Assembly: GCF_000730165.1 (NCBI RefSeq)
Contig: NZ_CP022110.1
Span: forward strand, 860,501 to 924,500
DNA: 64,000 nucleotides
From: Nitrospirillum viridazoti CBAmc
GTDB lineage: Bacteria; Pseudomonadota; Alphaproteobacteria; Azospirillales; Azospirillaceae
Direction: 5' to 3'
The notes beneath the pieces were generated by a model. The model saw only the letters and a program-made list of their open reading frames with translations, did not search any database and was not told the origin of the DNA. Position numbers and translations under genes: made by a program. Below are positions 3,217 through 33,741 of this stretch, in pieces (position 1 is the first letter of the stretch; each line of letters starts with the position of its first letter).

Positions 3217-3504
3217 GAAAAAAAGATGGCGCTGGACGGTGGCACTCCCCATATGGGGGACCGCCGCCCGGCGCTGTCGCCTTTTTCTGGAGGATGTCGT
3301 ATGGTGATCCTCCAGTTTCTTCCCGAAGAAGGTTCCGCGATGGAATTTGGGGCGGGAAGGGCAGTTTGAGTGTTTGGCGCCGGACGGCGGCCGCTTCCGA
3401 AGGGGGCGGGGCCGGACGCGCCTATTTGTGTTTGTTTCGCTTGCCGTCGCATCCAAATCGGCCGGCGCAGTTGACCCGGGCCTAGTTCACGAGAGGCGCA
3501 TTTC
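3192..3504 (+). other. Non-coding rplL-rpoB intergenic region
   Basis: This 313-base gap contains no supportable gene. It holds three consecutive hairpins in its first 125 bases (entered separately, plus a perfect 9-bp CTGGAGGAT/ATCCTCCAG stem at 3287-3295 and 3307-3315 followed by TTTCTT). The remainder up to the rpoB ribosome binding site is GC-rich and shows no clear promoter. Confidence 0.6.
3228..3286 (+). terminator. Candidate attenuator between rplL and rpoB
   Basis: A 15-base arm at 3228-3242 pairs with 3261-3275, with wobbles and one mismatch, and encloses a CCCC-ATAT-GGGG hairpin. A run of five T follows at 3282-3286, seven bases after the stem. In Escherichia coli a partial terminator here makes rpoBC transcripts less abundant than ribosomal protein transcripts; I infer the same role by position and shape. 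Confidence 0.55.
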
Positions 3505-7692
<4,188 letters not shown>

Positions 7693-23813: not shown

Positions 23814-24620
23814 TTACGGGTCAGGGTTCTGGGAGTAGTCGGGAATGCTGGGGTATTGGCGCGGATCTGCCTTGCCGTTCAGGACATAGCCATCACGCTG
23901 CTGCCGGTAGGCGGCGCGTATGGCGGCGTAATAGTCGACGCTGTTCTTGCGCAAATCGTCCAGCGCCTCGAAATAGGTCGAACGCACGTCCAGCACCGTC
24001 AGGCCCACGCGGGTATAGTTGGCCCAGTCATTGTTGGTGTTGCTGGACACGCGGGTGACCGGGTCACCCCATGCTTCAAGGCCGAAGCCCACGGCGTCGC
24101 GGACGGATGAGGCGCCCAGGAAGGGCAACACCAGGTAGGGCCCCTCGTCTATGCCCCAGACGGCGAAGGTCTGGCTCAGGCTCTCGTAATGATAGGGGAT
24201 GCCATTGGCCGCGGCCACGTCCACCAGGCCGCCGATGCCTACCGTGGAGTTGATGACGAAGCGTTCCACGGTCACGCCGGCGCCATCCCAGTCGCCCTGC
24301 AGCAGGTTGTTGGCCAGGGTGAGGGGGGAGCGCACGTTGTTCAGCACGTTGGACACGGCGTCGCGCAGCGCCGGCGGGATGGCCCAGCGGTAGGCCTGGG
24401 CCACGGGGCGCAGCACGGCTTGGTCCACCTGGTCGTTGAACCAGAAGATGCCCCGGTTCATGCCTTCCAACGGGTCGTTAGCCTCGGGCCCCGCGAGGGC
24501 CGGGTGCTGGGGCGTGCCATCGGGATTGTGGGCACAGGCCGAGACGCCCAGTAGCATCCCCACCGCAAGTAATGCGGGGGCCAATCGCCGCCGCCGGTTC
24601 GCAAGGAGCCATGTCGGCAT
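23814..24620 (-). CDS. mlaA: Outer-membrane lipoprotein MlaA (VacJ)
   Basis: MlaA removes mislocalised phospholipids from the outer leaflet of the outer membrane and passes them to MlaC. From the ATG at 24620 the 268-residue product has a lipoprotein signal ending in LLGVSAC (lipidated cysteine 29) and the family core DPLEGMNRGIFWFNDQVDQAVLRP, then FVINSTVGIGGLVDVA and WGIDEGPYLVLPFLGASSVRDAVG. An in-frame ATG at 24668 would lengthen the signal peptide to 45 residues and is less likely; neither start has a strong ribosome binding site. Confidence 0.93.
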   Translation of the reverse strand: MPTWLLANRRRRLAPALLAVGMLLGVSACAHNPDGTPQHPALAGPEANDPLEGMNRGIFWFNDQVDQAVLRPVAQAYRWAIPPALRDAVSNVLNNVRSPLTLANNLLQGDWDGAGVTVERFVINSTVGIGGLVDVAAANGIPYHYESLSQTFAVWGIDEGPYLVLPFLGASSVRDAVGFGLEAWGDPVTRVSSNTNNDWANYTRVGLTVLDVRSTYFEALDDLRKNSVDYYAAIRAAYRQQRDGYVLNGKADPRQYPSIPDYSQNPDP

Positions 24621-24998
24621 GAAAGAAACCAAGGGCCCGCCCTGCGGGATCGGCGACATCAGGCGCATGCGTCAACCCACGGTTAAGTTGGTTATTGATG
24701 AATGATTGGCATACTTTGTGGCCAAATCCAGGCGCCACTAAGAGGTGGGCCAAGGTGGGGCCATTTTCTATCTGACCTTCGATATAGGGGTCGGCCATCG
24801 AACGAGTGGGGCGGACGAGCGGGGTGGCGCACCCACGTTTTCGGGCCGGCGCTGGGATGTAGGCCATTATACCGCCTTGCCCGTCACCCGTGTGGCGCGT
24901 TGGTCGTCTCGTATCGTTGTCATTATTCTCTCGCATAAAGACATCTTTATATGTACAAATGATCCCCTAGACTGCGGTGGCATGGGGATCGTTGGACC
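24621..24998. other. Divergent intergenic region mlaA / ArsR-type regulator
   Basis: This 378-base gap has no supportable gene. It must hold the mlaA promoter on the minus side and the promoter of the regulator-metF unit on the plus side. The one clear element is the palindromic operator at 24935-24950, entered separately. The last 100 bases are clearly AT-richer than the surroundings. Confidence 0.6.
24935..24950 (+). promoter_or_regulatory. Palindromic operator upstream of the ArsR-type regulator and metF
   Basis: ATAAAGA-CA-TCTTTAT is a perfect 7-bp inverted repeat with a two-base spacer, 48 bases before the regulator ATG. The same sequence occurs in the same orientation relative to transcription upstream of metH (32357-32372). 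Dyads of this size are typical of ArsR-family operators, so autoregulation is inferred. Confidence 0.8.
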
Positions 24999-26929
<1,931 letters not shown>

Positions 26930-27130: not shown

Positions 27131-27832
27131 ATGACACGATTGATGCACCGAGTGATGGGGGCGGCCGTGCTGGCCGGCACCCTGATGACCGCTGGCGGTG
27201 CGCTGGCGGGGGAAATCACCCTGTACTCCGAAGCCTTCTTCCGGGGCGAGGCGCTGACCATCCGCGACGGCGTGGAAAACCTGGCCGACATGGGGCGCTG
27301 GAACGACCGCGCCAAATCCATGATCGTGCGCTCGGGCGAGTGGGAGGTGTGCAAGGACTCCGGCTTCCGCAACTGCAAGCGCGTGGGGCGCGGCACCCGG
27401 ATCGGCGATTTGGGCGAGATCGGGCTGTACAACGCCGTCTCCTCCGCCCGGCAGATCGATGGCCGCTACTACCAGCCGGAACCGCCTCCGCCGCCCGTCT
27501 ACGACCCGCCGCCCCCGCCCTCATACGGCCCACCGCCCGGTTATGGCGGCGGCATCACCTGGAACAATGCTCCCTCGGGCCCGCCGGCCTATGACCAGCC
27601 ACCGCCCCCACCGCCCAGTTATGGTGGTGGCGTCACCTGGAATGACGACCGGCGGGACGGCCCCCCGCCCATGGGCGACTGCCGCCGCCGCATCTATGAC
27701 GCCTTCGTCCAGCGCTTCGGCCCGCCGGGCGACGTCAATTTCCGGGGTGAGGAGTGGGAAGGCCGCATCTTCTGGAATGGGGATCGCTGGCACTATCGCT
27801 GCACGCCGGAGCAGATCAACATCTGGCAGTGA
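27131..27832 (+). CDS. Secreted beta/gamma-crystallin-like protein with Pro-rich linker
   Basis: The 233-residue product has a signal peptide (MHRVMGAAVLAGTLMTAGGALA within the first 27 residues). It is followed by a beta/gamma-crystallin-like Greek-key region (EITLYSEAFFRGEALTIRDG, GRWNDRAKSMIVRSGEWEVC, GLYNAVSSARQI). Next comes a Pro/Tyr/Gly-rich linker that twice repeats a GGGxTWN unit, and finally a short domain with DCRRRIYDAFVQRFG and WNGDRWHYRC. These folds bind calcium or act structurally in other bacteria; function here is unknown. ATG at 27131 follows AGGGTGGA. Confidence 0.75.
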   Translation: MTRLMHRVMGAAVLAGTLMTAGGALAGEITLYSEAFFRGEALTIRDGVENLADMGRWNDRAKSMIVRSGEWEVCKDSGFRNCKRVGRGTRIGDLGEIGLYNAVSSARQIDGRYYQPEPPPPPVYDPPPPPSYGPPPGYGGGITWNNAPSGPPAYDQPPPPPPSYGGGVTWNDDRRDGPPPMGDCRRRIYDAFVQRFGPPGDVNFRGEEWEGRIFWNGDRWHYRCTPEQINIWQ

Positions 27833-27841
27833 TGATGGGGG

Positions 27842-28441
27842 ATGGGAATGGCAGGGGTCACCGCGCGGCTGCTGATTTCCGCGGGCCTGATGTTGGGTGC
27901 CACCCTGCCCGGGACCGCATGGGCATACGACGCCATGGTCATCCTGTATTCGGGACAGGACCGGGGCGGAAGTACCCTCGATATTGAAGAGGATACCGAG
28001 AACCTGGCCGGCGACGGTTGGAACGACCGGGCGCGGTCCCTGGCGGTCACGGGCGGAACGTGGGAGGTGTGCCGCCACGCCGGCTATCGTGACTGTGAGA
28101 CGGTCAGGGCTTGGGACGTGGTCAACGACCTGTCCCGCATCGGCCTGGACCAGGCCATTTCCTCCGTACGCCGGATTGACCGGCCGGCGCCGGAACCGGC
28201 GGCGACCACCGGCACCGGTTCACCCATCGTGTGGAACACCAGACGGCCGGCGACCCTATGGTCCCTCACCAGCGCGGGCGACTGCCGGCCCGATATCCGT
28301 GCGGCCTTCGCCCAACGCTTCGACTCCGCCGGTGAGGGTGATTTCGACGGCGGCCCAAGTGACGGGCGCCTCACCTGGGACGGCAAGGTGTGGGGCTATA
28401 ACTGCGCCTACCGCCAAACCGACATTTGGCCGGAGGGTTAG
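27842..28441 (+). CDS. Secreted beta/gamma-crystallin-like protein, tandem paralogue
   Basis: The 199-residue product has a signal peptide (GLMLGATLPGTAWA) and the same layout as its upstream neighbour: a crystallin-like domain (MVILYSGQDRGGSTLDIEED, GWNDRARSLAVTGGTWEVCRHAGYRDC, GLDQAISSVRRI) and the C-terminal domain (DCRPDIRAAFAQRFD, WDGKVWGYNC), but with a much shorter linker. Four cysteines match in position. It starts nine bases after its paralogue, so they form a two-gene unit. The exact start is uncertain by two codons (ATG at 27842 or 27848). Confidence 0.75.
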   Translation: MGMAGVTARLLISAGLMLGATLPGTAWAYDAMVILYSGQDRGGSTLDIEEDTENLAGDGWNDRARSLAVTGGTWEVCRHAGYRDCETVRAWDVVNDLSRIGLDQAISSVRRIDRPAPEPAATTGTGSPIVWNTRRPATLWSLTSAGDCRPDIRAAFAQRFDSAGEGDFDGGPSDGRLTWDGKVWGYNCAYRQTDIWPEG

Positions 28442-28460: not shown

Positions 28461-31136
<2,676 letters not shown>

Positions 31137-31193: not shown

Positions 31194-32267
31194 TTAGAAT
31201 GCCGGCATCTCGAACGGCTCCAGCCCGGCCAGGCGCATGCGCGCCGGGCGGTCGGCGGGCGGGCGCGGGGTGATACCCTTCACCGCCTCGGCGATGGCGC
31301 GGATATGCACGGGGGTGGTGCCGCAGCAGCCGCCGACGATGTTCACCAGTCCGTCGCTGGCCCAGTGGCCCAGCGCGTCGGCCATCTGCTCCGGCGTCTC
31401 GTCATAGCCGCCGAACTCGTTGGGCAGGCCGGCATTCGGATGGGCGCTGACGTAAGTGTCGGCGACGCGGCTCAGTTCCTGAACATAGGGGCGCATCAGG
31501 TCGGCACCCAGCGCGCAGTTCAGGCCGATGCTCAGCGGCTTCACATGGCGCAGGCTGTTCCAGAAGGCCTCCGTCGTCTGGCCGGACAGGGTGCGGCCGG
31601 AGCGGTCGGTGATGGTGCCGGAGATCATGACCGGCAGTTCTAGCCCCTTTTCCTCAAGCACCTCGTCGACGGCGAACAGGGCGGCCTTGGCGTTCAGCGT
31701 GTCGAAGATCGTCTCGACCAACAGCATGTCGACGCCGCCGTCGATCAGGCCCTCCACCTGGGTGCGGTAGGCGGTGCGCAGCTCATCGAAGTCGACATTG
31801 CGGAAGCCGGGGTCGGTCACCACCGGGCTGATGGACGCGGTGCGGTTGGTGGGGCCGATGGCACCGGCGACGTAGCGCGGGCGCGTGGGGTCCGCATCCT
31901 CCAGCGCGTCGCCGGCGGCGCGGGCCAGGGCGGCGCCGGCCTTGTTGAACTCGTACGCCAGATCCTCCATGCCGTAATCGGCCAGGCTGATGCTGGTGGA
32001 GTTGAAGGTGTTGGTCTCGACGATGTCGGCACCGGCGTCGAAATACTGCTGGTGGATTTCCCGCACGATCTGCGGCTGCGTCAGGTTCAGCAGGTCGTTG
32101 TTGCCGCGCACGTCGCGGTGCCAGTCCTTGAACCGCTCCCCGCGATAGCCGGCCTCATCCAGCTTGTAACCTTGGATCATGGTGCCCATGGCGCCGTCCA
32201 GCACCAGGATGCGCTGCTTCAGCAGGTCCGGCAGGCGGGCCAAACGTTCGGAACGGGTCAGGGCCAT
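31194..32267 (-). CDS. metH: Methionine synthase homocysteine-binding subunit (split MetH N-terminus)
   Basis: The 357-residue product is the homocysteine methyltransferase barrel of Met[36 protein letters not shown], and zinc ligands C251 (GLNCALGA), C314 and C315 (GGCCGTTP). It would activate homocysteine for methyl transfer from the B12 subunit encoded next. The ATG at 32267 follows GGAG nine bases upstream; the in-frame ATG at 32288 is a possible alternative. The operator at 32357-32372 lies 90 bases upstream. Split MetH forms are known in Alphaproteobacteria. Confidence 0.94.
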
Positions 32268-32356
32268 GATCGCGTACTCCACCGGCATAAGGGCGCCGGG
32301 TATGTTCCAGGTAACAATGTTCGCCACCCTAGTCATCTGGGGATACAGATGCAAAC

Positions 32357-32372
32357 ATAAAGATGTCTTTAT
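32357..32372 (-). promoter_or_regulatory. Palindromic operator upstream of split metH
   Basis: ATAAAGA-TG-TCTTTAT on the plus strand (spacer CA when read toward metH) is the same dyad as at 24935-24950. Here the dyad extends one more base on each side (C...G), giving 8-bp arms. Read in the direction of the controlled gene, 17 consecutive bases are identical at both sites. Confidence 0.8.
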
Positions 32373-32478: not shown

Positions 32479-33741
32479 GTGCCGCAGACGGCAGGGCAAG
32501 AGGGGCGGGGGCGCCCGGCGGTGGCCATCATCGGTGCCGGCCCCGCCGGCCTCATGGCGGCTGAGGCGCTGGCCGGGAAGGGCATCGCCGTTACCGTCTA
32601 TGACGCCATGCCCTCACCGGCGCGCAAGTTCCTGATGGCCGGGCGCGGCGGCCTGAACATCACCCATTCCGAACCGCTGGACCGCTTTCTCACCCGCTAT
32701 GGCGCGGCGGCGGCGGTGGTGGCGCCGTGGATCAGGCGCTTCACGCCGGACGACCTGCGCGCCTGGGTGCACGGCCTGGGTATCGAAACTTTCGTGGGCA
32801 GCAGCGGCCGCGTCTTCCCCGTAGGCCTCAAGGCCTCCCCCCTGCTGCGCGCCTGGCTGCGCCGGCTGGATGGGCTGGGCGTGACGCTGAAGGCCCGTCA
32901 CCGCTGGACCGGATGGACCGACGACGGCGCGCTGGCCTTCGACACGCCGGAGGGGCCGCTGGCGGTGGCGGCGGACGCCACCCTGCTGGCCCTGGGGGGC
33001 GCCAGTTGGCCGCGCCTGGGCTCCGACGGCGGCTGGGCGCCCTTGTTGGCGGCGAAGGGCATCGACCTCGCCCCCTTCCGCGCCGCCAACGCCGGCTTCG
33101 ACGTCGCCTGGTCCCCCGCCTTCATCGAGCGGGCGGAGGGGCAGCCCCTGAAGCGCATCGCCCTGTCCTTCGCCGGCCAGACCAGCCGGGGGGAGGCGGT
33201 GGTGACCCGCACCGGCCTGGAGGGCGGCGCCCTCTACGCCCTGGGCGCGCCGCTGCGGGAGGCGATCGCCCGCGACGGCCAGGCGGTGCTGCATATCGAC
33301 CTCAAGCCCGACCTGGACCTGGCCGCCATTACGGCGCGTTTGGCCAAGGCGCCGCCGTCGGAAAGCCTGAAGAACCGCCTGCGCAAGGCCCTGGGGCTGG
33401 AGGGCGTGATCCCCGCCCTGCTGCGGGAAGGCGTCCCGCCCGCCGATCTCGCCACCCCGTCCGCGCTGGCCCAGCGCCTCAAGGCCCTGCCCATCACCCT
33501 GGCCGCCATCCGCCCTATGGATCGGGCCATCTCCACCGCCGGCGGCATCACGCTGACCGAACTGGACGATCACCTGATGCTGCGCCGCCTGCCGGGTGTC
33601 TTCGCCGTGGGGGAAATGCTGGACTGGGAAGCGCCCACCGGCGGCTATCTGCTGCAAGCCTGCTTCAGCGGGGCGGTGGCGGCGGCGGAGGGAATGGCGG
33701 GGTGGCTCAACGACTGGCGAGTAGGCGCATTTCCTGGATAA
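32479..33741 (+). CDS. HI0933/YhiN-family flavoprotein (NAD(P)/FAD-dependent oxidoreductase)
   Basis: The 420-residue product has an N-terminal dinucleotide-binding fold (VAIIGAGPAGLMAAEALAGKGIAVTVYD), the family motif KFLMAGRGGLNITHSEP, a second conserved block ALGGASWPRLGSDGGWAPLL, and the C-terminal FAVGEMLDWEAPTGGYLLQACFSGAVAAAEG. These place it in the HI0933-like family, whose substrate is unknown. The start is the GTG at 32479 with GGAAGG upstream. Its 3' end overlaps the convergent zinc-ribbon gene by 35 bases. The metH operator lies 106 bases before its start. Confidence 0.9.
   Translation: MPQTAGQEGRGRPAVAIIGAGPAGLMAAEALAGKGIAVTVYDAMPSPARKFLMAGRGGLNITHSEPLDRFLTRYGAAAAVVAPWIRRFTPDDLRAWVHGLGIETFVGSSGRVFPVGLKASPLLRAWLRRLDGLGVTLKARHRWTGWTDDGALAFDTPEGPLAVAADATLLALGGASWPRLGSDGGWAPLLAAKGIDLAPFRAANAGFDVAWSPAFIERAEGQPLKRIALSFAGQTSRGEAVVTRTGLEGGALYALGAPLREAIARDGQAVLHIDLKPDLDLAAITARLAKAPPSESLKNRLRKALGLEGVIPALLREGVPPADLATPSALAQRLKALPITLAAIRPMDRAISTAGGITLTELDDHLMLRRLPGVFAVGEMLDWEAPTGGYLLQACFSGAVAAAEGMAGWLNDWRVGAFPG

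Follow-up and report, generated by a model that had tools for sequence, protein, structure and literature searches.

Introduction

SahR of Desulfovibrio is reportedly negative-acting; its sensor domain is said to be methylase-like, and S-adenosylhomocysteine (SAH) is said to release the protein. We take the combination of an ArsR winged helix with a methyltransferase-like domain to be the build that defines SahR.

The portions of Leyn et al. 2014 (PMC4239095) used here describe SahR as an SAH-responsive regulator of the ArsR family that recognizes a 20-bp palindrome, list sahR, ahcY, metH, metH2, metF and metK as its core targets, and place it in seven of nine Rhodospirillales. The corresponding portions of a study of Ensifer aridi (PMC8877191) term SahR a predicted repressor; sahR is a 1023-bp gene there, and promoter activity was highest in the sahR deletion strain. 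Judged by title, none of the literature matches listed dealt with SahR in Azospirillum.

Here we analyse a SahR-type locus of Nitrospirillum viridazoti CBAmc, contained in a stretch of 64 kb (the window), for which a first-pass annotation had proposed a regulon of two sites controlling the methyl cycle. We compare it with the rest of the genome, with relatives and with the systems above.

Results

The sahR-metF and metH units

The genes and predicted operators of the locus, in window coordinates, are:

24935–24950, no strand: SahR-type operator 1 (predicted), an exact dyad 48 bp upstream of the sahR ATG and in the same place in relatives
24999–25928, plus strand: sahR, 309 aa, an ArsR winged helix with a class I SAM-methyltransferase fold (PF01022 at residues 14–57, PF08241 at 153–249)
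25955–26929, plus strand: metF, methylenetetrahydrofolate reductase (PF02219; TIGR00676 and NF006950 above cut-off)
28461–31136, minus strand: metH second part, with the pterin-binding, B12-binding and activation domains (methionine synthase model positions 357–1233 of 1234)
31194–32267, minus strand: metH first part, with the homocysteine S-methyltransferase domain (model positions 5–354 of 1234; ATG at 32267)
32357–32372, no strand: SahR-type operator 2 (predicted), an exact dyad 89 bp upstream of the metH ATG

sahR and metF, separated by 27 bp, probably form one operon. The two adjacent metH ORFs jointly cover the methionine synthase model, and a two-part metH in the same order is found in the loci of several relatives. 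Between metF and metH, tandem genes (27131–27832 and 27842–28441) encode beta/gamma-crystallin domains (PF00030). Divergent from sahR lies a gene whose product has an MlaA lipoprotein domain (23814–24668), which is also the neighbour of sahR in many relatives.

SahR is a single protein in which the Pfam ArsR helix-turn-helix is followed by the methyltransferase domain. Its predicted structure (mean pLDDT 93.2, pTM 0.84, from 38 aligned sequences) starts with a winged helix, followed by a long helix (residues 92–128) and a Rossmann-like methyltransferase fold. The solved structures closest to the model are SAM methyltransferases, with TM-scores, taken on the query, of about 0.5. Of the 80 solved structures matched by sequence, 60 were listed, and every one of these aligns to the DNA-binding part or to the methyltransferase part, never to both. 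Two stretches stand out by their conservation, QSQPRVSRH in the recognition helix and DIGTGTGR at the SAM site; across 16 family members and across 38 wider ones, no change is seen in QSQPR.SRH of the helix or in D154, G156, G158 and G160 of the SAM site. Among named relatives, strains of Nitrospirillum amazonense are nearest, with SahR proteins 95–99% identical.

Three exact dyads mark methyl-cycle genes in the genome

The two dyads reported by the first-pass annotation are present at 24935–24950 (ATAAAGACATCTTTAT) and 32357–32372 (ATAAAGATGTCTTTAT) and, oriented toward sahR and metH, have CATAAAGACATCTTTAT in common, which reproduces the 17 identical bases counted earlier. Their description as a perfect 16-bp dyad was slightly generous, as the 7+7 arms pair but the two-base centre, CA/TG, is not palindromic. 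At up to three mismatches the window yields these two dyads only, against 0.09 expected, so that the 7.4 kb between them is indeed free of further copies; none of 100 dinucleotide shuffles of the window yielded two.

A scan of the whole genome (7,382,386 bases on four contigs, 7.38 Mb) for ATAAAGA-NN-TCTTTAT returned three exact copies, the two of the window and one at 2867141–2867156 of contig C1, 107 bp before ahcY (the gene for S-adenosylhomocysteine hydrolase, identified from the sequence by eye). The earlier proposal of two sites, at sahR-metF and at metH, is thus one short. All three copies lie 48–107 bp upstream of methyl-cycle transcription units and have CA/TG at the centre, TA being usual elsewhere in the family. 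The annotation had suggested such a scan for further genes of the SAM cycle, and of ahcY, metK and metE, ahcY alone gained a site: metK, on the same contig as the ahcY site, is without a dyad (the best match across 6.1 kb has five mismatches), and no metE gene was found in the genome.

Beyond the three exact copies, the genome holds no dyad with one mismatch, two with two mismatches and 28 with three. As a control, the reversed pattern gave one place against three real dyads at up to one mismatch, and 54 against 33 at up to three. Because the control outnumbers the real dyads at the looser threshold, we regard the weak dyads as noise and rejected the two-mismatch copies (loci L004 and L005, the former with its dyad 61 bp upstream of an ORF) and the 28 three-mismatch copies as targets. 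The frequency of three-mismatch dyads might invite the view that all the dyads are chance palindromes, but these copies are no commoner than in the control, whereas each of the three exact dyads stands at a methyl-cycle unit and the dyad is conserved throughout the family (below). A chance origin, which the annotation had already called unlikely, is extremely improbable, and for the exact copies we consider it refuted.

The site at 32357–32372 also lies 106 bp upstream of a divergent flavoprotein gene (32479–33741), which it could serve instead of metH. We think this very unlikely, since in other genera (L108, L111, L113, L131 and L134) the dyad occurs at metH in loci with no flavoprotein match.

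The dyad is conserved across the family

At up to one mismatch the dyad was found in 77 of 79 family genomes, at 189 places, against 24 places for the reversed pattern in the same genomes (both totals summed by hand). The exact TA-centred dyad occurs in 71 of 82 genomes and its reversed control in none of the 82.

We classified 128 of the 189 places, namely 124 distinct places from 125 loci and four chosen single-mismatch places. As many as 113 of the 128 lie 32–152 bp upstream of sahR(-metF), ahcY or metH. Among the 124 distinct places, 112 belong to these genes: 44 to sahR (32–115 bp upstream), 50 to ahcY (72–152 bp) and 18 to metH1 (45–117 bp). One of the four additional places is at sahR and three match no query gene. 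The dyad thus marks methyl-cycle genes in relatives as it does here, recurring at the promoter of the regulator, at ahcY and at metH, in line with the first reading of the locus. The remaining 12 of the 124 places comprise six exact dyads (L024, L091, L092, L129, L133 and L140) and six with one mismatch; given 24 control places against 189 real ones, the single-mismatch sites are at about the level of chance.

Three of these exact dyads have other neighbours. One lies 29 bp upstream of a gene for a LysE-type exporter (L133, genome G012) and one where an M24 peptidase gene begins (L129, G034), each either a possible extra target or chance; a third stands directly before a 208-aa ORF that has no match in Pfam (L024, G061).

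The association with sahR was also seen from the side of the gene. We scored the 200 bp ahead of sahR in the best 80 of 563 related loci from named genomes: 47 had an exact dyad, 16 a dyad with one mismatch, 11 with two and three with three, and three had no dyad. By comparison, 320 control windows inside sahR never had fewer than five mismatches, and shuffled sahR upstream regions reached one mismatch or better in 0.025% of cases. The regulator protein was present in 22 of 23 genomes checked, and the one without it (G030) is also without the dyad. These data bear on the possibility that the dyad is the site of a different transcription factor, with the ArsR-methyltransferase gene as just one of the targets of that factor. 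The assignment of the dyad to SahR is made from sequence, which leaves some room for such a factor, but the dyad accompanies this gene at up to three mismatches in 77 of the best 80 of 563 loci, G030 lacks both, and the same targets appear in the SahR assignments in the consulted part of PMC4239095. We therefore hold a different factor to be very improbable and assign the dyad to SahR.

One genus departs from the common pattern. In four genomes of this genus (G025, G016, G005 and G021; loci L143–L146) the protein is kept and the dyad is absent from the sahR promoter, where the upstream regions retain TTTACC, 17 bp and TATAT. At ahcY the dyad is exact in G016, has one mismatch in G005 and G021 and is absent in G025, a genome in which no dyad at up to one mismatch was found anywhere. 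From these sequences, autoregulation seems to have been lost in this genus, with control of ahcY retained in three of the four genomes. Having lost the dyad but kept promoter-like boxes, the genus offers a natural experiment on autoregulation.

Position of the dyad relative to putative promoters

Promoter boxes were sought in stacks of relatives' sequences anchored on the dyad and dereplicated (28 of 41 sequences for sahR, 37 of 43 for ahcY and 8 of 13 for metH). In the sahR stack, TTTAC and TATAT are 17 bp apart and the dyad occupies the spacer. In the ahcY stack the dyad is followed by GCTTGC, with TACACC-like boxes 17 bp further, and in the metH stack by GTTTGCAT, TTTGCAT after the dyad being conserved in the stack of eight dereplicated sites. 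The corresponding elements of the window are:

24948–24953, plus strand: TATATG as the putative −10 element of the sahR-metF promoter; it overlaps the end of the dyad (from the stack of 28 dereplicated relatives)
32326–32354, minus strand: putative metH promoter, with −35 TTGCAT (32354–32349), 17 bp and −10 TAGGGT (32331–32326)

At the −35 position of sahR the window has ATTCTC, a poor match, and this element is hard to place in the genus of the window. As a scan for sigma-70 consensus promoters returned none at either dyad of the window, the boxes are drawn from conservation. This geometry suggests that the dyad sits between the −35 and −10 elements at sahR and abuts the −35 element, on its upstream side, at ahcY and metH.

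The difference in geometry raises the question of whether SahR might act in two ways, repressing sahR from within the spacer and activating ahcY and metH from sites centred near −45.5; a predicted dyad centre at that distance would by itself be compatible with activation. Such dual action depends, however, on the putative boxes, and it runs against both the negative action reported for the Desulfovibrio protein and the term predicted repressor in the part of PMC8877191 consulted. We consider it unlikely, and favour repression at all three units.

Dyads ahead of cobalamin riboswitches in relatives

At Rfam gathering scores, the window contains one tRNA only, and nothing was called in the ahcY and metK loci, whether SAM, SAH or other riboswitches. 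The Nitrospirillum genome has three cobalamin riboswitches, and their 3-kb loci contain no dyad better than five mismatches.

In some relatives the two elements are adjacent. An exact dyad is followed after 28 bp by a cobalamin riboswitch and metE in G002 (L247), and after 30 bp by a cobalamin riboswitch, folB and metF in G064 (L246). In G029 (L244), a one-mismatch dyad, 30 bp, a cobalamin riboswitch and folB adjoin LysR-type (metR-like) and metE-like genes, and in G043 (L245, 3501–4016) a one-mismatch dyad lies upstream of folB with metE-like and LysR-type genes nearby (metE of both genomes and the LysR gene of G029 were named by eye). No riboswitch was called in the folB leader of G043; the stretch 3501–4016 resembles the start of the G029 riboswitch leader and is perhaps a decayed riboswitch. 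All four have TTGAC 6–7 bp after the dyad. As single-mismatch dyads are near the number expected by chance, G029 and G043 are weakened as examples, and the case is carried by G002 and G064.

A search for the exact dyad followed by N5–8 and TTGAC found it in only three of 385 genomes of the class, in the sahR promoter of G007, near ahcY, and at L259, where it matched none of the query genes; there is thus no sign that the dyad-riboswitch pair is common. Among the literature matches listed, judged by their listing, nothing concerned a SahR operator paired with a cobalamin riboswitch; the passages of PMC3621897 consulted treat another subject.

A tentative reading, which we put at somewhat below even, is that a SahR operator before a cobalamin riboswitch acts as a two-signal gate on a B12-free module for methionine and folate. 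SAH would have to accumulate before transcription began, and B12 would have to be scarce for the transcript to be completed or translated. If true, the gate would relieve both a lack of methionine and the locking-up of folate in its methyl form; if real, the pairs would stack an SAH sensor at the DNA level and a B12 sensor at the RNA level on one promoter.

Discussion

The above results make it highly probable that Nitrospirillum has a SahR regulon of three sites, in which SahR would bind and repress sahR-metF, metH and ahcY, and SAH would relieve the repression. A SahR dimer would bind ATAAAGA-NN-TCTTTAT at the three promoters and lower transcription. Because the dyad fills the predicted spacer between −35 and −10 at sahR, binding there may block RNA polymerase. 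SAH is the product of methyl transfer and is inhibitory; on building up, it would fill the methyltransferase-like domain and SahR would be released, yielding more AhcY, which converts SAH to homocysteine, and more MetH and MetF, which serve the conversion of homocysteine to methionine. The promoter boxes are predictions from our comparison; binding, repression and the part played by SAH are taken over from published work on other SahR proteins. Since no metE was found, the methyl cycle should depend on MetH and AhcY, and what is fixed in this plant-associated, nitrogen-fixing lineage would be a complete and small SahR regulon.

By every feature tested except metK, the system is a SahR regulon. 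The protein combines the ArsR winged helix with the SAM-methyltransferase-like domain, its own gene is preceded at 48 bp by a palindromic 7-2-7 dyad comparable with the operator of about 20 bp, and the core targets ahcY, metH and metF have sites at all three units. metK lacks one, which does not exclude membership, because core membership is statistical in the portions of PMC4239095 considered.

Among alphaproteobacterial SahR systems (Rhodospirillales and Rhizobiales in Leyn et al. 2014, PMC4239095; E. aridi in PMC8877191), as far as the descriptions used here extend, the Nitrospirillum regulator shares the ArsR family, the palindromic operator and, as predicted, autoregulation, and, with PMC4239095, the predicted targets ahcY, metH and metF. 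The length of the E. aridi gene (PMC8877191) suggests the same helix-turn-helix and methyltransferase build. Unlike in those systems, metK here is without a site, metH consists of two adjacent genes and the dyad centre is CA/TG.

SahR of Desulfovibrio alaskensis, as cited in PMC4239095, is likewise an SAH-responsive ArsR regulator of SAM-cycle genes; its motif is reported, in the part of that paper used, to differ slightly between alpha- and deltaproteobacteria. SamR of Xanthomonadales, a distant SahR homologue adjoining metH1/metH2, has in the same source a 24-bp motif, ATC-10 nt-GAT, in place of ATAAAGA-NN-TCTTTAT, and the only SAM-cycle gene given there among its targets is metK, whereas in Nitrospirillum ahcY is a predicted target. 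With a different motif and a site at ahcY, the regulator does not fit SamR. The regulon is thus most likely of an already described type, known from Rhodospirillales among others, of which this locus is a clean fresh example and not a novel system.
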